DNA of 51,413 nt, taken from Syntrophomonadaceae bacterium (GTDB lineage Bacteria; Bacillota; Syntrophomonadia; Syntrophomonadales; Syntrophothermaceae). Each line of letters opens with the position of its first letter. The first letter of the stretch is position 1. The stretch is from assembly GCA_012799365.1 (NCBI GenBank), contig JAAZLJ010000022.1:1-51413 (forward strand), written 5' to 3'. Both the position numbers and the translations under genes were made by a program. The notes beneath the pieces were generated by a model. The model searched no databases. It had not been told where the DNA came from and was given only the letters and a program-made list of their open reading frames with translations. Of this stretch, positions 10,033-38,457 are shown piece by piece.

Positions 10033-13000
10033 CTAGTTGAATATGGCATATATATTGGGCTGCCCCACCTTCACATTCACCCGTCCCGAACCAGAATCTG
10101 CATATCGGGTGGCATCCACCCAGCGCAGATTGGTGTCATCATAATAGACTGCCTGTAACCTTCCCAGCGGCACCGCCCGCTCTGCAGTCCAGGTTACGTT
10201 AATATCACTGGCCAGGAAGGTAAGCTCTGCCTGCCTGGTCTCGGAATAGAAATCGGTTTCCACCATAAATCCCCCGGCCAACCGGGATCCCGGCCGGTTC
10301 AGGACCATGGATTCCAGGTACCCACCAGGAGCCGGAGTCAACCGCAAACGTACGTAAGGGTCGCGCGTCAACCGGGCAAAACTCTCGTATTCAAAAGTAG
10401 TCAGGGCCCGAACCGGTATACTCACCTCAAAGGTGTTGGTTGATAACCGGATGGTGGTATCCGGGTTTTTCTCGATGCCCTCACCCGGAATCAACATTTC
10501 CAGAGAAGTACAGCCGCGCTGCACCGCATCCAGCATGATTTCATAGTAAGGGAACCGCCAGAACGTAAGATCCCGGCCCACGATGATTTTCAGCTCATCC
10601 CCTACCAACGTAATCTGAGGACTTACGTCATCAATGCGCGCCGTAGGCGGTCGATTCGTAATATCATCTTCGGACACGTAGATAGGATTGGCCTGGCAGG
10701 GTATAAAACCGGAAGTCCCATGCTCATTTATGGTCCGCAGCCAGAAATGATAGCGGCAATCGGCGTCGATATCCTCAAACATGTACTCGGTATCCCGGGT
10801 AGAACCCAGGTACTCACGGGAATCCTCGTAAGAGCTGGTGCTGACATAAATCTCGTAAGTGCTGGGCACCTCGGATGGAGTCCAGAACAGTTTGATGGCC
10901 CGCTTATTCCATATCTTACCGTCAAACTCCCCGGGAACCGGAGCTATGGTACGCTCATAGGTAAATCCGTTGGGCGCAATGGCTTCGCTGTAATCCGGAG
11001 CAGGATTACGTACGGCTACGTCTACCGCACCCGGCGGATGAGGAGGACTGATCACCAGCAGAGCATCGTATTTATAGCTCAGCATTTCGGCTTTTTTCTG
11101 CCCGAAAAACACCTCACACCCCTCACGGAAGTTCTCTCCCTGGATGGTAACTTTCGTACCGCCTTCGCTGGTGCCCCGATTCGGGTCGATGCTGGTAATT
11201 ACCGGTTCTCCCTCACCTTTAACGTAAGTGAAGCCATCCGGCTTGACTATACTGCCACCATCAACGGTATTGAATACCGTCACATCCACCCTGGCACTGG
11301 TTGCCATCTCCGGCAAAGAATAGGCCGGGGTACGCAGTACCAGCTCGGTCTCGGAAAACTTTATCAGCTCGGCCAGCTTATCACCGAAGTAAACCTCCAC
11401 CGGTTCTCGGAAATTGCTTCCGGTAATGGTGACATTGGTCCCCCCCTTGCTGCTGCCCTGATTGGGCTCAATGATAAACCTGCCGGGTTTCACCACCGGA
11501 GACACGTACTCAATCGTATAGTCTGCCTGCCCCCCATCCGGATTCTTGACCCGTAAAATACGAGAACCTACCCGATCCGCAGGAGAAATTACCACTCTTA
11601 TCGTCCCATCGCTTTTCACTTCGATGTTTTCGTACTCAACTCCATCTATGGTTGTATACCCGTCATCCGTCAAGTCACGCAATGAAGTAAATGAGGTACC
11701 GAAGGCATCACCGAGCAGCACATCGGTCCCCGCTTTCTTTCCGTTTTCTTTTACCGGCGGGACAAACTGACTGCCGTAAATCATGCCCAGGCTGGCATGA
11801 TGCCGCGAGAATTTAGACGGTATCACGGTACTGATGAGCGGCCGGCTGGTTACAAAAGTGTACCCCCCGGTCAGGGTATATGTACCGGAATCCGGATTGG
11901 TAATCGTAACATCCACCGCCCCTCCACCAGGATAGGCCGGAGTCCGCACTTTCAATTGAGCTCCCTGGGATATAGCGATGGTATCGTCTTTTATAACTTC
12001 ACCGGCTACCCCGCCAAAGGTTACCACCGGCCAAACTTTTTCGCCCGCCTTATTCTGGTCACGAAAATCAAGACCATGGAGAGTAACTACCTCATTTCCT
12101 TCCGCCGGCCCCTGGGCTGGTTCTACAGCCCGGATCTTAGGCGTGCTGCCAGGAACAATATAAGTAAATGCACCGGCCCTACGGGCAGTACCCCCGTCGG
12201 GATTGAGTACCATAACATCTACCGCCCCGGGAGATTCCCCCGCCGGTAGAGGCGGGGTTTTGGCCCGGATGAGACACTCGCCCCATACCCCTTTCTCCGC
12301 ATCAAACTCCAGCAGCTGCACCTCTAAAATAGCGGCCTGCTCTCTGCCGATATACAATTCCAGGTCTTTGTGAAAGTCGGAACCCTCCACCAATATATCG
12401 GTTCCGCCCAGATTGGAACCTTTTTGCGGTTCAACCCTGGTTATCTGGGGAACACTTCTCGGAATCTGGAACACAAATTTGTCCCGGGCCGCCGCTTCCG
12501 CCGTATCCGGATTAACCACCCGTAATTCGTAAGGACCCGGCTCTCCCAAATCCGGAACTATGAACTGGATCTCGGTAGGGGATTTTACGTATACCTGTCC
12601 GGCCACGGTAGCCGGTGTACTCACGGTATGCAGCTGGCGAGAACCCAGGAAAACCCTGGTATCAGACCCCACCACAAAATCATTCCCCTGCACATAAACC
12701 TTGGTGCCTTCTCCCCCATGGGTGGGGACAAACTTTTCAATAACCGGACGGGTAAATACCGTATGATACCTGAATCCCTCATCTACCGTAACCATTCCGA
12801 TGCCGGTAGGATCTACGTTTATTACCTGCAGCGGCACCCAGACCTCGGCCCGGGTCCCCGGCGGCGTAACACAGGATATCTCCTGCCCCGCCCGACCCAC
12901 GGAAACCCCGGTCGCCAGGCGGCCATCGATGGTGACCAGACAGCCTTCCCGGAAATTGGTGCCGGTAATAATTATGGTCTCTCCACCCCCGATGTTCCCT

Positions 13001-15657
13001 TCATTGGGGTGGATACTTTTGACAACTGGCTTGAGATCCTCCTTGAACTCCTTATAGACAAATTTCTTATCCCAGGACGCCCATCCCCGATCCGGATTGA
13101 TGACGGTCAGTTCATGCTCCCCGGCCTCCCCCGACGGCACCTTCAATATTATCTGGTTGCCCAGATCGGTATCATAATCCTGCAGTTCCACACCATCCCT
13201 GGTAACCCTGATCTTGCCGCCGCTATGAAAAGTTATGGTTTCCTCAGGAAACAGTTCCTTCAGCAAAGCCCGGTAATACTCTTCGCTCTTTGATTCATCT
13301 TCGTAAACCTTACCCACCACCACCTGGGAACCGATTTTAACCGCCAGGCCGTACATGAACTCCTGCCCATCAATCGCCAGATAAAGACCACCGGTTTCCG
13401 GTGCCAATCCCGGATTCACCGCTGTAACCTGCGGACTGCTGACGTACTCAAAGCCGTCTTCAGCTACCGCCTCACCTTTGTCCCAGTTCTGTACCCGCAC
13501 ATCGACTTTCCCCCGCACACCGCAGGCCGGGGTATGTAGTTTAATTGTGGCCTTCTGGCGGCCGCCTTCGATTGGGCCTGGAATAACTTCGTCCACCCTG
13601 GCCCGCACCGTCCCGAAATACACCTCTACCCCGTTATAAAAATTAAATCCCTCAACGATTACCTCTGTATCCCCGGCCGTAGGCCCGTAATTGGGGGTTA
13701 TTGAGGTTATATCCGGAGTACTGCTCAAACGCACATAGCTGAAAGCTTGGGATAAAATAGCTCTCTCGACCACAGGTGGGTCGTCTTTAATAACCAACCG
13801 CTCTCGCTCCAGCCCCCCATCTTTTACCAGATACATGGCTTCATTGACCGTAACCTCAACGTCTACTGTTCTCTCCAGTTCCAGCGGTTCCAGGGGGTGA
13901 GCCCGGGTAGTCCCGCGCAGGTACTGAATACCATCCTGGCCCGTTTCCAGCCCGGTTATTGCAATCGGAATCCCCCCCAGAGAAAAGGAAACGGTGCGCT
14001 CTATTTCTACATTTTTATATCCTTTATATTCGGATAGTTTTTCCTTCAAAACCACCCCTGTAGAAGGAGGTGAAACCTTTATTTCGTTTTCGTTCGCATC
14101 ACCAGGGAGTTCATCTTCATTTACATAACGTTTGGAGCCTTCCTGCCGGAATTTAAAGAAATTCTCTCCGGTAAGTATAACTTCAGTTCCGCCTTTTTCG
14201 GAACCAATTTTCGGCGCAATTCCGGTCAGACGCAGTTCCTGGCCGCGATGGGTATAGAAAAACCCATCAATCCGCGTATCTTTAACTATAGCCGGCAGGT
14301 TTTTATCTCTCACGGTTACATTAACCGGTCCCGTATACGTTCCCCTGCCAGGAGCCTGCGGAGTAGTGATGCTCAATGCCACCGCTCCCTCCTCATACCC
14401 GGCCGGAACCTCATCTGCAGAAAGCAGCTGGAGTTCCTGCCCCAACCCTTCCCATTTCTGGTCAGGTGCCTGAAACGCTACTTCGGTGTTGGTATCAAAG
14501 CCTTTCCCGATAAGGGTGACCTTATCTCCTCCCCCGGGCTTACCGAAGTTAGGCAGAACATCCAGCAGCTCGATGTCGCCGGGGGTAGGTATGATATTGA
14601 TAGCACCGGTGTATACCGCCTCCGCCTCCACTCGCCCGTCGGGCTCAGGCCTTTTAACTTTGATCCTTAGAGTATGCTGGTTGAGATCCGCTGCTCCCGG
14701 AACCGTAACCACCAATTTATGAGCTGACCCCGACTGTACCTCGGCCTTACCGCCAGCGATGAACACCTCATTATGCTCTATATTTAATTCTTTGAAATTA
14801 CTGCCGATGATCTCCAGTTTCATGCCCCGTACCAGGGCGGCCGGGCTGGGATTGAAACTGCTGGCCTCGGGAATACCTATTTTAGAAAGCTGTTGATCTC
14901 CCTGTACCTTCGTATATTCTTCCGATTCGCCCCTCGCGGTGTTTTCCACCTTTATGGTCAAGTCGTTACCATCCATGATTTTATTATTCCAACGAATATA
15001 AGGACCCCCAATATAGACACCATCTTTATCCTTATCCCATTCAATAACACCCGCATAGTTAGGTTCTTCTTTATCTCTCTCCAGGATGCTGTACAAGACC
15101 GAATTCCCCCCTGCAGTTGAAACCGTGATTCGCATGGCTTTCTCCAGGTTCTTCCCCTCGAAGGCCACCTGTTTACTGTCTGATTCTACGATAGGGCTGC
15201 CATCCGACTTGAATCCGCTGATCCTTGATTTCTTAATCGGATAGACATTGTCAATCTCAGGATTGTTTATATACCTTAGTTGTTTAGCCGTATAACTTGC
15301 ACTTCTATCTGCAGTTTTGACAATCACTGCTTCTACTTCCTGCGGTGGCGTTAACCCGGTTGGTAAATTAGGTGCCGCCACGATCACCTCATTAGGGGAC
15401 CAGGCCAGAATATCTTCTGCTTTTACGGATAAGGATTGTTCACCAACACGAAAAATCACATGCCCGGTATCACCAAAACCCGTCCCTTCGATGATGACGG
15501 TGGTACCCCGGGTTACATCCCGGAACCCGTAGGCATTCTTGATATCAGTAATCTTAATTTCATCAGCCGCCTGTCCCGGCAAGACCGGCACCAGGGTAAA
15601 CATGAATACAAATAAAACCAACCAGGCCAGCGAACGGTATCTATGTATATGACGCAT
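10033..15657 (-). CDS. Giant exported IPT/TIG-repeat surface protein
   Basis: A protein of 1874 residues. A signal peptide (about 1-30, ending GQAA) is followed by about fourteen IPT/TIG immunoglobulin-like repeats up to residue 1560, recognisable by the recurring pattern P..G...GGT.V.I.G.NF followed by V.FG. The best copies are the last two (EPNQGSSKGGTNVTITGSNF and DPNRGTSEGGTKVTIQGENF); several earlier ones are diverged. About residues 1571-1660 form a fibronectin type III-like domain (KLFWTPSEVPSTYEIYVS), and a C-terminal domain of about 200 residues is unrecognised. No SLH or LPXTG anchor is seen, so retention at the surface may depend on the two SLH proteins encoded just downstream. The ATG at 15657 is preferred over a GTG three codons upstream because AGGAG then has eight-base spacing. 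Likely a structural or adhesive envelope protein. Confidence 0.92.
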   Translation of the reverse strand: MRHIHRYRSLAWLVLFVFMFTLVPVLPGQAADEIKITDIKNAYGFRDVTRGTTVIIEGTGFGDTGHVIFRVGEQSLSVKAEDILAWSPNEVIVAAPNLPTGLTPPQEVEAVIVKTADRSASYTAKQLRYINNPEIDNVYPIKKSRISGFKSDGSPIVESDSKQVAFEGKNLEKAMRITVSTAGGNSVLYSILERDKEEPNYAGVIEWDKDKDGVYIGGPYIRWNNKIMDGNDLTIKVENTARGESEEYTKVQGDQQLSKIGIPEASSFNPSPAALVRGMKLEIIGSNFKELNIEHNEVFIAGGKAEVQSGSAHKLVVTVPGAADLNQHTLRIKVKRPEPDGRVEAEAVYTGAINIIPTPGDIELLDVLPNFGKPGGGDKVTLIGKGFDTNTEVAFQAPDQKWEGLGQELQLLSADEVPAGYEEGAVALSITTPQAPGRGTYTGPVNVTVRDKNLPAIVKDTRIDGFFYTHRGQELRLTGIAPKIGSEKGGTEVILTGENFFKFRQEGSKRYVNEDELPGDANENEIKVSPPSTGVVLKEKLSEYKGYKNVEIERTVSFSLGGIPIAITGLETGQDGIQYLRGTTRAHPLEPLELERTVDVEVTVNEAMYLVKDGGLERERLVIKDDPPVVERAILSQAFSYVRLSSTPDITSITPNYGPTAGDTEVIVEGFNFYNGVEVYFGTVRARVDEVIPGPIEGGRQKATIKLHTPACGVRGKVDVRVQNWDKGEAVAEDGFEYVSSPQVTAVNPGLAPETGGLYLAIDGQEFMYGLAVKIGSQVVVGKVYEDESKSEEYYRALLKELFPEETITFHSGGKIRVTRDGVELQDYDTDLGNQIILKVPSGEAGEHELTVINPDRGWASWDKKFVYKEFKEDLKPVVKSIHPNEGNIGGGETIIITGTNFREGCLVTIDGRLATGVSVGRAGQEISCVTPPGTRAEVWVPLQVINVDPTGIGMVTVDEGFRYHTVFTRPVIEKFVPTHGGEGTKVYVQGNDFVVGSDTRVFLGSRQLHTVSTPATVAGQVYVKSPTEIQFIVPDLGEPGPYELRVVNPDTAEAAARDKFVFQIPRSVPQITRVEPQKGSNLGGTDILVEGSDFHKDLELYIGREQAAILEVQLLEFDAEKGVWGECLIRAKTPPLPAGESPGAVDVMVLNPDGGTARRAGAFTYIVPGSTPKIRAVEPAQGPAEGNEVVTLHGLDFRDQNKAGEKVWPVVTFGGVAGEVIKDDTIAISQGAQLKVRTPAYPGGGAVDVTITNPDSGTYTLTGGYTFVTSRPLISTVIPSKFSRHHASLGMIYGSQFVPPVKENGKKAGTDVLLGDAFGTSFTSLRDLTDDGYTTIDGVEYENIEVKSDGTIRVVISPADRVGSRILRVKNPDGGQADYTIEYVSPVVKPGRFIIEPNQGSSKGGTNVTITGSNFREPVEVYFGDKLAELIKFSETELVLRTPAYSLPEMATSARVDVTVFNTVDGGSIVKPDGFTYVKGEGEPVITSIDPNRGTSEGGTKVTIQGENFREGCEVFFGQKKAEMLSYKYDALLVISPPHPPGAVDVAVRNPAPDYSEAIAPNGFTYERTIAPVPGEFDGKIWNKRAIKLFWTPSEVPSTYEIYVSTSSYEDSREYLGSTRDTEYMFEDIDADCRYHFWLRTINEHGTSGFIPCQANPIYVSEDDITNRPPTARIDDVSPQITLVGDELKIIVGRDLTFWRFPYYEIMLDAVQRGCTSLEMLIPGEGIEKNPDTTIRLSTNTFEVSIPVRALTTFEYESFARLTRDPYVRLRLTPAPGGYLESMVLNRPGSRLAGGFMVETDFYSETRQAELTFLASDINVTWTAERAVPLGRLQAVYYDDTNLRWVDATRYADSGSGRVNVKVGQPNIYAIFN

Positions 15658-15765
15658 GATTAACACTCCTATTCATCAACCTGAGCCCGGAATAAACCAA
15701 CCCCGCAGCCCATATACTTTATCAGATAGAACATCGAAAAACGAAATATTTTGTTTAATATGCAT

Positions 15766-25296: not shown

Positions 25297-26643
25297 TTAT
25301 TTAAGATACCCCAATGGATTATTATGTCTGCCCCCGTTGATGACTTCAAAATGTAGATGAGGCCCGGTACTACGTCCGGTAGAGCCTACATGTGCAATTA
25401 CCTGCCCCTTGGAAACCTTGCTCCCCTTGCTTACCAGCAGCTTGGAACAATGGGCATATCGGGTGACCACTCCATTACCGTGGGCGATTTCTACCATTTT
25501 CCCGTAGCCACCACTCCAACCGGCAAATCTCACCGTCCCGCCATCAGCGGCCCGAATAGCCGTACCGGTCTTGGCTCCAATATCGATACCTTTATGACTG
25601 CCTCCCCGGGAACCATAGCTAGAAGTAATCCTGCCATAAATAGGCCAACTCAATGTTCCCGAACTTCGTCCGCTGCCACGCGAGGCAACCACGATTCTTT
25701 CGCCCTTAACTATTACCCTATCCACAGCTTTTTCTATGATGTTCTCACTGAGGATATTTTTGTCTACCGTAGATCCATTCTTACAGGTTAGTCGATAAGT
25801 TACTTGCTTCCGGCCCTCTTTCCCTGCTTGCTTAACTTTCACACTGCTGCTCTTGCGGTCTACCTCAACCCTGGTCTTATAAGGGATTTTTTCCTCCCGA
25901 GTACCCTCTACCACTGTAACCACGTCAACATAAGGACTGGTTGTAGATATCGCCAATTTCTGTCCCAGCTGCAGCCGTTCACTCTTCAGCTTGTTGGCAG
26001 CTACGATATCCACGACATGTGTATCATGCCGTCGGGCTATCAGCCACAGTGAATCTCCCTCTTTAACCTCATAGATAGTAGGTGAATCCGTGCCGGTCTG
26101 TAGTATCTGCAAAGCCTGATCCGGGCTAACAATCTTATCAGTAGAAACCGTCTTCTGATTAATCTCTACTTTTTGCTCAAATTCCGCTGAAACAAGTTTT
26201 TCCCCTGACTCACAGCCAGTATACCCTTTTTTGAGCCGTTCCAAAACCTCTTTGGCCTTAGACTCACTGCTGACCACCACGACTGGTTTCCCATCCACTA
26301 CGATGGCCGCCCCGGTGGTAACCAGCTTCAATTCTCGGGCAATTATTTTCGCTACCTGGGCATCAGCCAGAATAGCTTTCTCATTAACCAGGACCCTCTT
26401 AAACTTGAGCTCATCCTTTACGTTAACCGGATGTCCCGTAGCCTTAGCCTGCTCCTGACAGACCTTATGTAGTTTATTCTGAAATTCTCCGGCATCTTTA
26501 ACGACACAGACCTGTTTGCCGTTAACATACACTTCATAGGCAGTCGTACGGCATCCTACCAAACACAACATCAAGACCAGCGACAAACTAAGCAGCGTAA
26601 GCAGTGGGAAGAGGACCCGTTTCTGGGTTAGTTTTTGCTTCAT
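25297..26643 (-). CDS. Lipoprotein with LysM, G5 and M23 peptidase domains
   Basis: A 448-residue cell-wall hydrolase. The N-terminus is a lipoprotein signal with lipobox LVGC (Cys about 31), which would anchor the protein in the outer face of the membrane. A region of about 150 residues without a clear domain follows, then LysM (190-234, YEVKEGDSLWLIARRHDTH) for peptidoglycan binding, a G5 domain (235-315) and a C-terminal M23 (LytM) endopeptidase. Zinc ligands are in SHKGIDIG (His350, Asp354) and GPHLHFE. This architecture is common in spore-formers, for cell separation or cortex/engulfment functions. The ATG at 26643 with GGGAGAAG upstream is preferred to a TTG ten codons earlier. Confidence 0.93.
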   Translation of the reverse strand: MKQKLTQKRVLFPLLTLLSLSLVLMLCLVGCRTTAYEVYVNGKQVCVVKDAGEFQNKLHKVCQEQAKATGHPVNVKDELKFKRVLVNEKAILADAQVAKIIARELKLVTTGAAIVVDGKPVVVVSSESKAKEVLERLKKGYTGCESGEKLVSAEFEQKVEINQKTVSTDKIVSPDQALQILQTGTDSPTIYEVKEGDSLWLIARRHDTHVVDIVAANKLKSERLQLGQKLAISTTSPYVDVVTVVEGTREEKIPYKTRVEVDRKSSSVKVKQAGKEGRKQVTYRLTCKNGSTVDKNILSENIIEKAVDRVIVKGERIVVASRGSGRSSGTLSWPIYGRITSSYGSRGGSHKGIDIGAKTGTAIRAADGGTVRFAGWSGGYGKMVEIAHGNGVVTRYAHCSKLLVSKGSKVSKGQVIAHVGSTGRSTGPHLHFEVINGGRHNNPLGYLK

Positions 26644-26746
26644 TGGTCTTCTCCCATCATTTTTATCCCGCAATGAATTCTACACCAAAGTATGAAAATC
26701 CTCCTTATGAATTCAATTTGTGAACAATTTCATCAAATTTGTCACA

Positions 26747-28159
26747 TCACTGCAGGCCTCCCCCCTCGACATGACCGGCTTTCGACCGGATTTTTTCAAT
26801 TTCCAAATAAATCGCACATTCCACTCTTTTACGATGCATAGCACAGGCAGTACGGGCTGGTATTTCCAGGCACCCGTTACTGAAATAGGCATTAGCATGA
26901 CATCCGCCCCCACAATAAAAACGCGCCCAGCATTTACGACATTCTGCTTTGGATGACAAATAATTCCTGGTCAGGCGCTGTTTAACCTGCGGGTCGGTGA
27001 TACCCGTCTCTACATTACCCATTAGAAATTCTTCTTCTCCTATAAACTGATGGCAGGGATAGATGTCTCCTCCCGGCGTAATAGCCAAATATTCACCGCC
27101 TGCCCCACAGCCGGTTAATCGCCGGGCCAGACAAGGACCCCGGGCCAGATCCAGGTTAAAATGAAAGTAGTTTATCTCCTGGCCCGCCTGATAGTGAGCC
27201 CACAGAGCCCGGGTAAGCCGATCATATTCCTCCAGCACCCGGGGAATAACCTCTTCCCCAATGGCAAATTCCTCATAAGGCCCTACCGCCGGCTCCAGAG
27301 ATAAGTTGGTAAACCCGCAGGCTATCAGGTGTTCCAAATCCTGAGTAAAATCTAGATTGCCCCGAGAGAAAGTACCCCTTACGTAATAGCTGACCGGATT
27401 CCTGGCTACCATCTGCTGAATGCGGGGCAAAACCACATCATAGCTCCCCTGCCCATTGTTAAGAAGCCGGCAGCGATCATTTACTTCCCGGCGTCCGTCC
27501 AGGCTCAGAATCACAGAGATCCCTTCTTCAACCAGGTAATCCATTTTCTCTTCATCCAGAAGCAGGGCATTGGTGGTGAGCGTAAACCGCAGGTTTTTAC
27601 CAGCCTTGCGCCCCTGCTTACGCCCGTACGCCACCAGACTACAGACTACATCCCAATTAAGCAGCGGCTCGCCCCCAAAAAAATCCACTTCTAGATTGGT
27701 AATATCCTGGCTCCCAGAAATAAGAAAATCCAAAGCTTGGCGGCCCACCGCCTCACTCATCAGCCCTTTTTCCGTCCCGAAATCTCCCTGCCGGGCAAAA
27801 CAATAAGTACATCTCATGTTACAAAGATGAGCAACATTCAAACAAAGTGCCTTTACAGGCATCTCCTCCAGATTGAGAATCGGTAATTCCACCGGGGTAA
27901 AAAGCGTTTGATCATCGTATGCCTGTTTCAACTCGTCTTCCACTTCTGTCGCTGCTTCGGTGCCAAAAAGCTGCCGACATCTGGCACCGGCCTGGGCAGC
28001 ATCACCTTGATTCTCGATTAGAGCAGTTACAAATTCCCGCGCCGGTTCGTCCAGCAAATGAATCGCTCCACTGTTAACATCCACCAAAATATGGTCCCCT
28101 TCAACGGAAAACAAGTGGATATTAGACGCAAAATCGTATCCGCTGACGTCCATCACCAT
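26747..28159 (-). CDS. SCIFF-type radical SAM peptide maturase
   Basis: A radical SAM/SPASM enzyme of about 470 residues that installs thioether crosslinks in the small six-cysteine peptide encoded immediately upstream. The N-terminal part (VDVNSGAIHLLDEPA) is the precursor-recognition region typical of SCIFF maturases. The radical SAM cluster motif is CNMRCTYC at 113-120. The SPASM region carries many cysteines for auxiliary 4Fe-4S clusters (CGAGGEY; PCHQF; ECRKCWARFYCGGGC). The frame extends upstream to a GTG inside a GC hairpin; I prefer the ATG at 28159 downstream of GGGGAGG, or the ATG two codons later. In characterised systems this enzyme makes Cys-to-Thr thioethers using S-adenosylmethionine. 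Confidence 0.93.
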   Translation of the reverse strand: MVMDVSGYDFASNIHLFSVEGDHILVDVNSGAIHLLDEPAREFVTALIENQGDAAQAGARCRQLFGTEAATEVEDELKQAYDDQTLFTPVELPILNLEEMPVKALCLNVAHLCNMRCTYCFARQGDFGTEKGLMSEAVGRQALDFLISGSQDITNLEVDFFGGEPLLNWDVVCSLVAYGRKQGRKAGKNLRFTLTTNALLLDEEKMDYLVEEGISVILSLDGRREVNDRCRLLNNGQGSYDVVLPRIQQMVARNPVSYYVRGTFSRGNLDFTQDLEHLIACGFTNLSLEPAVGPYEEFAIGEEVIPRVLEEYDRLTRALWAHYQAGQEINYFHFNLDLARGPCLARRLTGCGAGGEYLAITPGGDIYPCHQFIGEEEFLMGNVETGITDPQVKQRLTRNYLSSKAECRKCWARFYCGGGCHANAYFSNGCLEIPARTACAMHRKRVECAIYLEIEKIRSKAGHVEGGGLQ

Positions 28160-28188
28160 AGCTTGAGCTTGCCTCCCCACAAAAGACA

Positions 28189-28209
28189 AGGCGGGCATCA
28201 CGCCCGCCT
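28189..28209 (-). promoter_or_regulatory. GC-rich hairpin between SCIFF precursor and maturase
   Basis: A perfect 8-base stem (AGGCGGGC / GCCCGCCT) with a five-base loop, followed on the minus strand by TTGTCTTTT. It sits 58 bases after the precursor stop and just before the maturase. It could be a weak terminator or an mRNA stabiliser that makes the peptide more abundant than the enzyme. Confidence 0.65.
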
Positions 28210-28267
28210 ATTTATTCGTTATAAGTAAAACTCAGCGCCATATTACCTGAAAACATTTCCGACGAAA

Positions 28268-28408
28268 CTATTGTTTTTCGCACACCTGGTTACCAACTGT
28301 GCAAGAGGTCTTGCAAGCTGATTGACAGGATGCCTGACATTCACGACAATTAGTTTCCCCGCTGTCCCGTTTAAGCACCGGGCCCACAATAGTCTGTAGA
28401 TGCTTCAT
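28268..28408 (-). CDS. SCIFF ranthipeptide precursor (46 aa, six cysteines)
   Basis: A 46-residue peptide that fits the SCIFF definition (six cysteines in about forty-five residues). It starts MKHLQTIVGPVLKRD and has Cys at 21, 24, 28, 32, 36 and 43 with spacing C-x2-C-x3-C-x3-C-x3-C-x6-C. The leader part (residues 1-20) has no cysteine; the core ends CEKQ. An ATG with GGAGGGGG about nine bases upstream starts it. The radical SAM maturase follows on the same strand, as in other clostridial SCIFF loci, so this is the substrate. It is short enough for gene finders to miss. The biological role of SCIFF peptides is not settled; quorum or metabolic signalling has been proposed. Confidence 0.95.
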   Translation of the reverse strand: MKHLQTIVGPVLKRDSGETNCRECQASCQSACKTSCTVGNQVCEKQ

Positions 28409-28479
28409 TAAAAATATCCCCCTCCCCCATGAACCTGAAACCATTTAAATATAAACCGCCCAAGAGCGGTATGCTTTTC

Positions 28480-28554
28480 TGGAGCGGGAAACGGGATTCG
28501 AACCCGCGACCCTCGGCTTGGGAAGCCGATGCTCTACCACTGAGCTAATCCCGC
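28480..28554 (-). tRNA. tRNA-Gly (CCC)
   Basis: A 75-base cloverleaf including the encoded CCA. The acceptor stem begins GCGGGAT and pairs with TCCCGC. The anticodon stem TCGGC/GCCGA encloses loop TTCCCAA, giving anticodon CCC (reads GGG, glycine). The T loop is TTCGAAT. It lies upstream of the SCIFF precursor on the same strand. Confidence 0.96.
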
Positions 28555-28609
28555 GCAACAATATTTTAACTCACAGGGCTGTGGTTCGTCAACTCCACAG
28601 CAGACGCTC

Positions 28610-28936
28610 ATTATACCGGAGGTATCATCATCAGAGACAGGAAAACTACATATTTACGGAGTGTGGTTAACCCGCTCGCTCCCCGACTTGTCGACTGCAG
28701 TACATCAGCTCGCTTCAGTGTGTACTGCGACGTCGCCCACGGCCAGCGCTCAGGCTCCGCCTTCGATTCCGCCGACACTGGCGAAACATCGTCGGCTTTG
28801 TTAGTCGCTTCACCAGTCTATCTAAGGATTGTTTTATATATTCAGCGTATTCATAAGTTTCTGCGTAATCTGCGTCTATTTGCGATTCATCTGCGTCCAT
28901 CAGCGTATATCTGCGGTTTTAAAAGTTTTTATAGCA
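28610..28936 (+). repeat. Dispersed composite repeat, copy G (complete)
   Basis: One of the cleanest copies, filling the gap between tRNA-Gly and the methyltransferase. Left palindrome TACCGGAGGTATCATCATCAGAG, junction GTGTGGTTAACCCGCTCGCT, a type-II middle (GCTCAGGCTCCGCCTTCGAT; GCGAAACATCGTCGGC), an extended right module (three successive TCTGCGT units) and the terminal CTGCGGTTTTAAAAG followed by TTTTTATAGCAG. The right end overlaps the last codons of the methyltransferase gene. Confidence 0.92.
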
Positions 28937-29756
28937 GATCGGCTGACTCATACTCTTCCTCATCCTCATCCTGGTCTTTCATGTAGGTCAGCAGCCTGTA
29001 CTCCTCGGTAATTCCCCCCTGCTCCAGCCGATCCAATATCATCTGATGATAGACCTGATCCACCTCGGTAGAAATAAAATGCCGATCCAGCCGTCGACAG
29101 ACTTCCACTTCCGCCCCGCTGCCCCCGAAAAGTATCAGCACCACATCACCAGGCATAGTACATGCCTTTATCAATAACTCAGAGAGGTCTTGAGGTATCT
29201 GACAGGCATGATAGGTTTTCTCCCGGCTTACATTCTTCACCAAATCAAAGTAAAACCAATCATAGGGCATCCTGCCCCTGGAGCCCCGCGCCAGGTTCTG
29301 TCTGATGCGACGATCTGTGGGATTTTTGTAAGGCTGGGCCACGTTATTCTTATAGAAACTATTGTCCTTCGTCTTGCGCGCATGAAGAATACTACGGTGG
29401 GCAGTGGTAAATCGCCGAGGACTGTGCCCCACATTGGTGTTATAAACCCAGGCATAGTCATGCACTTCATAACAGGCTTCATCCAGGTATTTCACTCGCA
29501 GGTAAGCATTTTGTTTGGGATAATTGATGAAAAACAGATTACCCGTATCCTTTAATACCCTCAGTGATTCCCGCGCCAGCTCCACATACCACTTTATATA
29601 CTCATTAAAAGCCCGGGTATAAGTCTTACCCCGGTATTTTTTTCCTACATTGTAATCAGGGTCACCAAAGACCATGTCCACAGAATTTTCCGGAAGCTCT
29701 CGCAGCAGTTCCAGAATATCCATCAAAAACACCTGGTCTATGTACTTTTCTAACAA
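28929..29756 (-). CDS. Orphan DNA methyltransferase (N4-cytosine/N6-adenine, beta-type order)
   Basis: A 275-residue DNA methyltransferase of the N6_N4_Mtase family. The catalytic motif IV is DPDYN at 32-36 (variant of DPPY), and the S-adenosylmethionine motif I is FGGSG at 210-214, C-terminal to it, the order of the beta class. The region between (about 110-180) is basic and would hold target recognition. No restriction endonuclease, specificity subunit or repair gene is adjacent, so it appears solitary, and such enzymes usually mark DNA for regulation. The C-terminus is strongly acidic (QDEDEEEYES). The last residues and the stop lie in the dispersed repeat. Start TTG with GGGGAGGAA upstream. 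Target base and sequence cannot be told from here. Confidence 0.88.
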   Translation of the reverse strand: MLEKYIDQVFLMDILELLRELPENSVDMVFGDPDYNVGKKYRGKTYTRAFNEYIKWYVELARESLRVLKDTGNLFFINYPKQNAYLRVKYLDEACYEVHDYAWVYNTNVGHSPRRFTTAHRSILHARKTKDNSFYKNNVAQPYKNPTDRRIRQNLARGSRGRMPYDWFYFDLVKNVSREKTYHACQIPQDLSELLIKACTMPGDVVLILFGGSGAEVEVCRRLDRHFISTEVDQVYHQMILDRLEQGGITEEYRLLTYMKDQDEDEEEYESADLL

Positions 29757-31763: not shown

Positions 31764-31975
31764 TTGAAACCGCAGATGATAACAAATAGACGCAGAGAAC
31801 GCGAAATGTATGAATCCGCTGAAGAAACAAAATAACCCATCACTTCAGGAGGGCATTAATGATTCGAGCGACTTGCGAAGCCGACGATTTTTGGCAAGTA
31901 TTGGCAGCCGAAGCGCAGCCTGGGCGCCCACTGAAGCTAACGATGTTTCGCCAGTATCGGCAACCATATTGTTTA
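31764..31975 (-). repeat. Dispersed composite repeat, copy H (inverted)
   Basis: Gap between lonC and purA. The right module comes first (TTGAAACCGCAGATGATAAC, then GAATCCGCTGAAGAAACAAA), followed by a type-II middle in inverted orientation (CGACTTGCGAAGCCGACGAT; GCTAACGATGTTTCGCCAG). The junction and left palindrome are missing. Confidence 0.8.
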
Positions 31976-36787: not shown

Positions 36788-37375
36788 TTATAGGGTTATA
36801 ACCTTCGGTGCTGCCGCTATAGCCTCAACTATAGTGTACATATTGGCCAGCTCTCCGACCATCAGTTTATCCCTCAAGCGATAAAGCTCTACACTGGTTC
36901 GGCAGCACAGTACCCGAATTCCTGCTCGCTCCAATTCCAACAGATATCCTAACGTCTCGGAGCCTTCCACCGCCAAAAACACCGCAGAATTATAAAGTAC
37001 AATGGTAGATGCCACACTCTTCATCTGGCAAAAAGTATATAGAAAGTTCCTGAGCAGATTCCGTCCCAGAACTTCGTTACCCTGACCCATGACATCGCTG
37101 CTCAGCATCAATACCACCTGCTCCACTCCCATCAGCCCCGGAGTAGGGCTCATCTGGGGTTTTTCAATGTGGATATAGTAATCACCCGCCCGTTCCTCGA
37201 CCTCCACCTCACACCCCAGTTTATGGGCCATTTGAGTAACGTTCTCCAATGCAGTCGAACTGTTCACCACTGTAGTCACTATCCCGCGCTCCATCTGTTC
37301 CAGAGCCTGTCTGGTCACGACCACCGGACCGGGGGAGGTAAGCCCCCGAGCATCTACCACTTTTTGCATTATCAT
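36788..37375 (-). CDS. yedF: Selenium metabolism protein YedF
   Basis: A 195-residue protein of the sulfurtransferase-like YedF type, which accompanies selenium genes in many genomes. Residues 1-70 form a TusA-like domain (VVDARGLTSPGPVVVTRQAL); the remaining part is a DsrE-like domain (VVLMLSSDVMGQGNEVLG) with conserved cysteines near CCRTSVELY. The TusA position that usually carries the catalytic cysteine (CPxP) is serine here (SPGP). The ATG overlaps the selD stop codon as ATGA, so translation is coupled to selD. The role in selenium delivery is inferred from gene neighbourhood in this family. Confidence 0.93.
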   Translation of the reverse strand: MIMQKVVDARGLTSPGPVVVTRQALEQMERGIVTTVVNSSTALENVTQMAHKLGCEVEVEERAGDYYIHIEKPQMSPTPGLMGVEQVVLMLSSDVMGQGNEVLGRNLLRNFLYTFCQMKSVASTIVLYNSAVFLAVEGSETLGYLLELERAGIRVLCCRTSVELYRLRDKLMVGELANMYTIVEAIAAAPKVITL

Positions 37376-38418
37376 CTTCCCCCTTTGACCACCACGGAGT
37401 AAGACCTCGTCGGTACCGCCCGGCCAACGATGGCATAGCTCACACCTTTTCTCGTCAGGGCCTCCGCCATAGCGTTACCCCTATCCTCAGGCACACCCAG
37501 CAGGAGCCCGCCAGAAGTCTCGGGGGAGTACGCCACATCCTTCACCGCTCCATCAACATTATCCTCAATGATAACCCGTGTACCCAGATAATCACGGTTG
37601 GCATATGCTCCACCGGGTACCAATCCCATGGAAGCGCATTGCAGGGCCTCACGCATGAAGTAAAGCTGGTCTGCAAACACCTCTGCCGATACCCCACTGG
37701 CCTCGGTCATCTCCACTAAATGACCCAAAAGTCCGAACCCGGTTACATCGGTTCCGCACTGCACTCCAACATCAACCGCCGCCTCTGCTGCCGCACTATT
37801 AAGGGTGGCCATCCACCGAACTGCTTCTTCTACCACGGGAACTGAAACCATTTCCGCCTTAATAGCAGTGGCGATGATACCGCTGCCCAGAGGTTTGGTT
37901 AAAAAAAGAATATCTCCCGCCCGGAGCCCGTTATTCCGAATCAACTTCTGGGGGTGGACAACTCCGGTAACCGCCAGGCCATACTTGGGTTCATTATCAT
38001 CAACACTATGTCCGCCCACCAGCAGGGCCCCGGCCTCTTTCACCTTATCCACCCCACCCCGGATAATATCACGCAAAATGCTGTAATCTTCACAGTTCGG
38101 GAAACACACTATATTCATAGCGGTTAAAGGCTTGCCTCCCATAGCGTAGACATCGCTCAGAGCGTTGGCTGCCGCCACCTGCCCAAAAAGATAAGCATCA
38201 TCTACAATGGGCGTAAAGAAATCCAGGGTCTGGATCAGGGCCAGGTCATCTTGTAGTAAATAAACCCCGGCATCATCCAGAGTATCAAAGCCTACCAGCA
38301 AACGGGGATCCCGAGGCAGCTCTATGCCCCGTAAAAGATCTTCCAGGGCCGCCGGCCCTATTTTAGCCGCTCACCCGGCCGCCCGAACCATATCAGTTAA
38401 TTTAAGCTCCCTGGTCAC
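37372..38418 (-). CDS. selD: Selenophosphate synthetase, itself a selenoprotein (in-frame TGA)
   Basis: SelD makes selenophosphate from selenide and ATP. Reading from the GTG at 38418 (GGGAGGGGG nine bases upstream) gives VTRELKLTDMVRAAG, then TGA at 38373-38371, then AAKIGPAALEDLLRG. This is the SelD N-terminus with selenocysteine at residue 16, the position of E. coli Cys17. The frame continues without a break to the stop at 37372, making 348 residues, the family length. A short frame starting after the TGA (from about 38301) lacks the catalytic residue and the ATP-binding lysine. A GC hairpin directly after the TGA could be the bacterial SECIS. selD overlaps yedF by four bases. All other Sec genes are present within 12 kb. 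Confidence 0.95.
38345..38373 (-). promoter_or_regulatory. UGA selenocysteine codon and candidate SECIS hairpin in selD
   Basis: TGA is followed by 11 bases and then a perfect AGGGCC / GGCCCT stem with a three-base GGC loop, which starts about 18 bases after the TGA. Bacterial SECIS elements sit immediately downstream of the UGA with a small apical loop containing G residues that SelB binds. The distance and loop are compatible. Confidence 0.65.
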
Positions 38419-38457
38419 TACTGAACACCCCCTCCCAAAACGTTCCCTCCCGGCAGA

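Follow-up and report, generated by a model that had tools for sequence, protein, structure and literature searches.

Introduction

The first SCIFF peptide to be characterised in vitro was Tte1186a of Caldanaerobacter subterraneus, in which the enzyme Tte1186 forms a thioether at Cys32. The thermocellin system of Clostridium thermocellum, CteA/CteB, belongs to the same precursor family. Where the crosslink ends is disputed: Cys32 was joined to Thr37 when Tte1186a and CteA were modified in vitro, whereas co-expression yielded a Cys32-Thr34 bond, and the two reviews that describe this conflict leave it open (PMC8172795, PMC8326336). A further system, PapA/PapB, which makes freyrasin, shares the ranthipeptide chemistry and uses Cys-X3-Asp motifs.

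Here we describe a gene pair on the minus strand of a 51,413-nt stretch (hereafter the window), which is one entire contig of a 2.24-Mb draft genome, 91.6% complete. The pair is a new instance of this well-described ranthipeptide system and not a new system; in fact, it is a very widespread clostridial gene pair. Its precursor shares Cys32, Thr34 and Thr37 with CteA at identical numbers, and its maturase aligns with CteB (PDB 5wgg, 431 bits) over almost the full length, including the RRE, radical SAM and SPASM parts. The likeness to Tte1186a/Tte1186 is drawn from the published description. The freyrasin system differs: the PapB model scored the maturase at 263.8 bits, below its cutoff of 340, and the precursor is without Cys-X3-Asp. 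Unlike CteA/CteB, the pair lies, in its own order, between a tRNA-Gly(CCC) and an M23 peptidase, and its core begins NCREC whereas GCGEC predominates elsewhere.

Taken by itself, the locus extends a known clostridial system, already nearly universal, by one species. Its added value lies in a hairpin between the two genes and in natural variants that make the crosslink-acceptor question directly testable. As a single explanation, we are highly confident in a standard SCIFF ranthipeptide locus, with Cys32-Thr34 as the most likely crosslink and a proposed partial termination between the genes.

The precursor and its maturase

The precursor gene (28268..28408, minus strand) is a 46-codon frame with a TAG stop that opens with an ATG at 28408, ends at 28268 and encodes MKHLQTIVGPVLKRDSGETNCRECQASCQSACKTSCTVGNQVCEKQ, with a leader of about residues 1-20 and a core from C21 to C43. 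The frame and its six cysteines, at positions 21, 24, 28, 32, 36 and 43, proved to be exactly as given in the initial annotation, which had also pointed out a strong ribosome site; a purine-rich, Shine-Dalgarno-like run, GGGGGAGGGGGA, does precede the gene (28417..28428, minus strand). In profile searches the peptide matched TIGR03973 ("six-cysteine ranthipeptide SCIFF") at 67.6 bits (cutoff 50, E = 6.4e-19) and the Pfam SCIFF family PF13165 at 72.7 bits (cutoff 27, E = 2.1e-20). It carries the SCQSACKTSC core and the family's hallmark of six cysteines within about 45 residues, and the neighbouring maturase that membership also calls for lies on the same strand (frame 26747-28201). No second SCIFF was found in the draft genome beyond 28268-28408, and a PDB search with the precursor sequence gave no match. 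The remark that such a peptide is too short for most gene callers finds no support, because curated models for SCIFF peptides exist in both NCBIfam and Pfam; at 141 nt, the gene also exceeds Prodigal's usual minimum gene length of 90 nt.

The maturase frame matched the SCIFF-maturase equivalog TIGR03974 at 531.9 bits (cutoff 425, E = 1.3e-159), while the runner-up model, not_ScfB, reached 461 and stayed under its own cutoff of 855. The solved CteB structure (PDB 5wgg/5why) aligned over residues 27-469, and PF04055 and PF13186 cover the radical SAM and SPASM parts. The open frame could start as early as a GTG at 28201. This codon, however, lies inside the intergenic hairpin, the TIGR03974 match begins only at residue 28 of the frame, and the ATG at 28159 is preceded by GGGGAGG; for these reasons the ATG is, judging from sequence, the likelier start (gene 26747..28159, minus strand). 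Twelve cysteines, at positions 120, 127, 131, 134, 357, 365, 383, 421, 424, 430, 434 and 453, are present in every aligned maturase (up to 165). C127, C131 and C134 form the CX3CX2C radical SAM triad, and the eight from C357 to C453 belong to the SPASM part and its approach. From residue 27 onward the N-terminal part aligns with that of CteB, whose RRE domain is known from the structure, and would by this analogy be an RRE domain as well.

The initial annotation had read the two genes as a SCIFF precursor and, downstream, a radical SAM/SPASM enzyme with a SCIFF-maturase N-terminus, and had suggested profile models as a check. This identification holds: both products score above curated equivalog cutoffs, the genes lie side by side in the same direction, and no active-site or cluster cysteine is missing.

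With the chemistry assigned by analogy to the published CteA/CteB and Tte1186 work, we envision the following sequence of events. The maturase would bind the leader of the precursor through its N-terminal RRE domain, and its radical SAM cluster would generate a 5'-deoxyadenosyl radical. Assisted by the SPASM clusters, the enzyme would then link the Cys32 sulfur to a threonine close by, most likely at the gamma carbon of Thr34, with a loss of 2 Da. Transcription from upstream would cover both genes as a unit, and only part of the transcripts would continue past the intervening hairpin, leaving precursor in excess over enzyme.

The pair travels together across genomes

Among 61 close relatives, SCIFF was found in 52 and a maturase above cutoff in 50. 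We then turned to 300 genomes of the same clostridial phylum, each at least 95% complete: a SCIFF match occurred in 241 and a maturase in 238, every one of the 238 maturase genomes had both, and 59 had neither (Fisher p ~1e-59; the genome lists were matched by eye and the Fisher tests computed). Co-occurrence is thus strict, with three genomes, G171, G228 and G241, showing a SCIFF match without a maturase. We rejected G171 as such a case, its match being a chance one of 22.4 bits, below cutoff and within a 1138-codon frame, and in G241 the match lies less than 800 bases from a contig end. Because the two genes are far apart in some genomes (about 310 kb in G280, for example), adjacency is common but not obligatory.

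Two genomes, G034 and G037, looked like natural losses, both genes being absent from assemblies that are 99% complete in a genus otherwise positive. In each, only a short distance (108 and 81 bases) separates the M23 orthologue from the edge of its contig, so that the pair probably fell into an assembly gap and we dropped these candidates. In the opposite direction, the draft genome G045 holds two SCIFF-maturase-M23 copies (L157 and L158), a duplication that is uncertain because contamination of this draft is 5%.

A hairpin between substrate and enzyme

Between the two genes lies a terminator-like hairpin (28189..28209, minus strand; -16.5 kcal/mol), AGGCGGGC-GTGAT-GCCCGCCT, followed by TGTCTTTT, a modest T run. 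We noticed it first at this locus and looked for it in other loci afterwards, and most relatives have a counterpart. A first scan of SCIFF-maturase gaps gave such a hairpin at 42 of 53 loci, where dinucleotide shuffles would lead one to expect 2.5; with revised thresholds it was found at 37/41 loci in the order (2.9 expected) and at 35/48 outside it (1.5 expected). A larger set gave 107 of 153 loci, 38/42 in the order and 69/111 elsewhere, against 29/102 control gaps (Fisher p ~3e-12 and ~1e-6), counts in which related loci are not independent and the controls are other co-directional gaps of 60-180 bases, mostly from the order. Such hairpins are thus carried by 28% of ordinary co-directional control gaps. 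Because the stem sequences differ between lineages, conservation applies to the feature and not to one sequence. In the literature searched, we found no report of a hairpin between SCIFF precursor and maturase.

What might the hairpin do? Only about 30 nt separate it from the maturase start codon here, which leaves too little room for another promoter before the maturase. Partial termination with read-through, which would supply substrate in excess, is the simplest reading. The hairpin could instead stabilise the 3' end of the precursor mRNA. On balance, partial termination is the reading that we carry forward.

Thr34 or Thr37?

We collected 188 distinct peptides with a pattern that allowed any residue between the cysteines and required at least 7 of 12 positions to match. 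The pattern itself fixed Cys21, 24, 28, 32 and 43, so that their constancy is not a result. By contrast with these imposed positions, Q29, S30, A31, K33, T34 and S35 were free to vary and are invariant in 188/188. Thr37 is present in 181 and replaced by glycine in seven, which form one clade on the maturase tree, span six families and all have an adjacent maturase.

Glycine at residue 37 cannot carry a gamma-thioether, and these sequences therefore favour Thr34 as the acceptor, at least in the Gly37 group. MKHLQTIVGPVLKRDSGETNCRECQASCQSACKTSCTVGNQVCEKQ has threonine at both positions, and its acceptor would by the same reading be Thr34. That Thr37 is the acceptor, as first reported in vitro for Tte1186a and CteA, seems to us unlikely, if still deserving attention: the in vitro reactions of these two homologues (PMC8172795, PMC8326336) and the presence of Thr37 in the precursor here and in the great majority of the peptides speak for it, whereas the Gly37 clade has retained its maturase while Thr34 stayed constant, and heterologous co-expression of CteA mapped Thr34. 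The natural Gly37 peptides offer a cheap test of the crosslink position.

Five of the 188 peptides have Leu or Ile in place of Cys36, through about four changes on the tree. These natural five-cysteine SCIFFs (L242, L257, L311, L342 and L345) each have an adjacent maturase, and they could show which thiols are needed for function. For clostridial SCIFF loci at large, we lean slightly towards a general picture in which a selected partial terminator sets the substrate excess, Thr34 and not Thr37 is the universal acceptor, and Cys36 is dispensable.

What is the peptide for?

The initial annotation had left the biological role open, which is partly outdated: according to the account of Chen et al. 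2020 given in PMC8102284, sporulation genes went down and agr went up in C. beijerinckii when both genes were disrupted. A mature peptide that acts as a sporulation signal or factor would explain the first of these effects, and Spo0A is encoded in the genome here and in its relatives. Yet across the 300 sampled genomes SCIFF is as common without Spo0A (32/39) as with it (209/261; Fisher p = 1.0), so that its occurrence is not tied to sporulation, and C. ljungdahlii gave no demonstrable sporulation link. We therefore hold a sporulation role to be improbable, and the lack of a Spo0A link narrows the search.

Somewhat less probable still is a bacteriocin. Antimicrobial activity is known from several sactipeptides, related thioether peptides that are likewise products of radical SAM enzymes; the SCIFF core, however, is nearly invariant throughout the phylum, genomes almost always have one copy of the gene, its conserved neighbours include neither an immunity gene nor a dedicated export gene, and the wide occurrence of the family has been counted against an antimicrobial role (PMC8326336). 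A near-invariant core and wide occurrence would be more in keeping with a conserved role in signalling or housekeeping. Finally, a decayed or unexpressed copy is hardly credible, since the frames are intact and have ribosome-binding-like sites, no active-site residue is missing, the core is invariant and synteny is conserved.

Genomic neighbourhood

The block tRNA-Gly(CCC)-SCIFF-maturase-M23 peptidase is kept in the order. At this locus the tRNA-Gly (anticodon CCC; 28480..28554, minus strand) lies directly upstream of SCIFF and is co-directional with it, an arrangement shared by 18 of 22 further loci from the order. Behind the tRNA is a terminator-like hairpin with a weak T run (28455..28470, minus strand), and upstream of it a promoter-like site, TTGACG-18-TAAAAT (28563..28592, minus strand), with 10/12 consensus matches, such sites being no commoner in the region than in shuffles. 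On the other side, the next gene encodes a LysM-G5-M23 peptidase (25297..26673, minus strand), conserved in the order and regarded here as a neighbour only. In most loci of the order SCIFF and maturase are followed by the LysM/G5/M23 peptidase, a thioredoxin reductase, an MA-clan peptidase and a MurA/EPSP-type synthase. One family has two genes resembling chromate-transporter halves (identified by eye) between the maturase and the M23 gene, and its thioredoxin reductase is elsewhere. Outside the order the neighbours vary, as in L067, with queA-tgt-yajC-SCIFF-maturase-HD hydrolase-secD-secF (named by eye).

Several other features of the window caught our attention. Between the tRNA-Gly and purA lies a DNA adenine methyltransferase-like gene (N6_N4_Mtase; 28929-29756, minus strand) that none of the other loci in the comparison shares. 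A pair of 28-nt inverted repeats (28771-28798 and 31934-31961), 89% complementary and 3.1 kb apart, flanks this methyltransferase, a tRNA-Val and purA, and is possibly a dispersed repeat element. The SelD frame at 37372-38439 (minus strand) extends upstream through one in-frame TGA, at read-through residue 23 (...MVRAAGUAAK...), where SelD proteins usually have a catalytic Cys or Sec; selA, selB and tRNA-SeC are in the window too, and this SelD is probably a selenoprotein. Finally, 10033-15666 (minus strand) encodes a protein of 1877 residues with repeated IPT/TIG domains, which is probably exposed at the cell surface.
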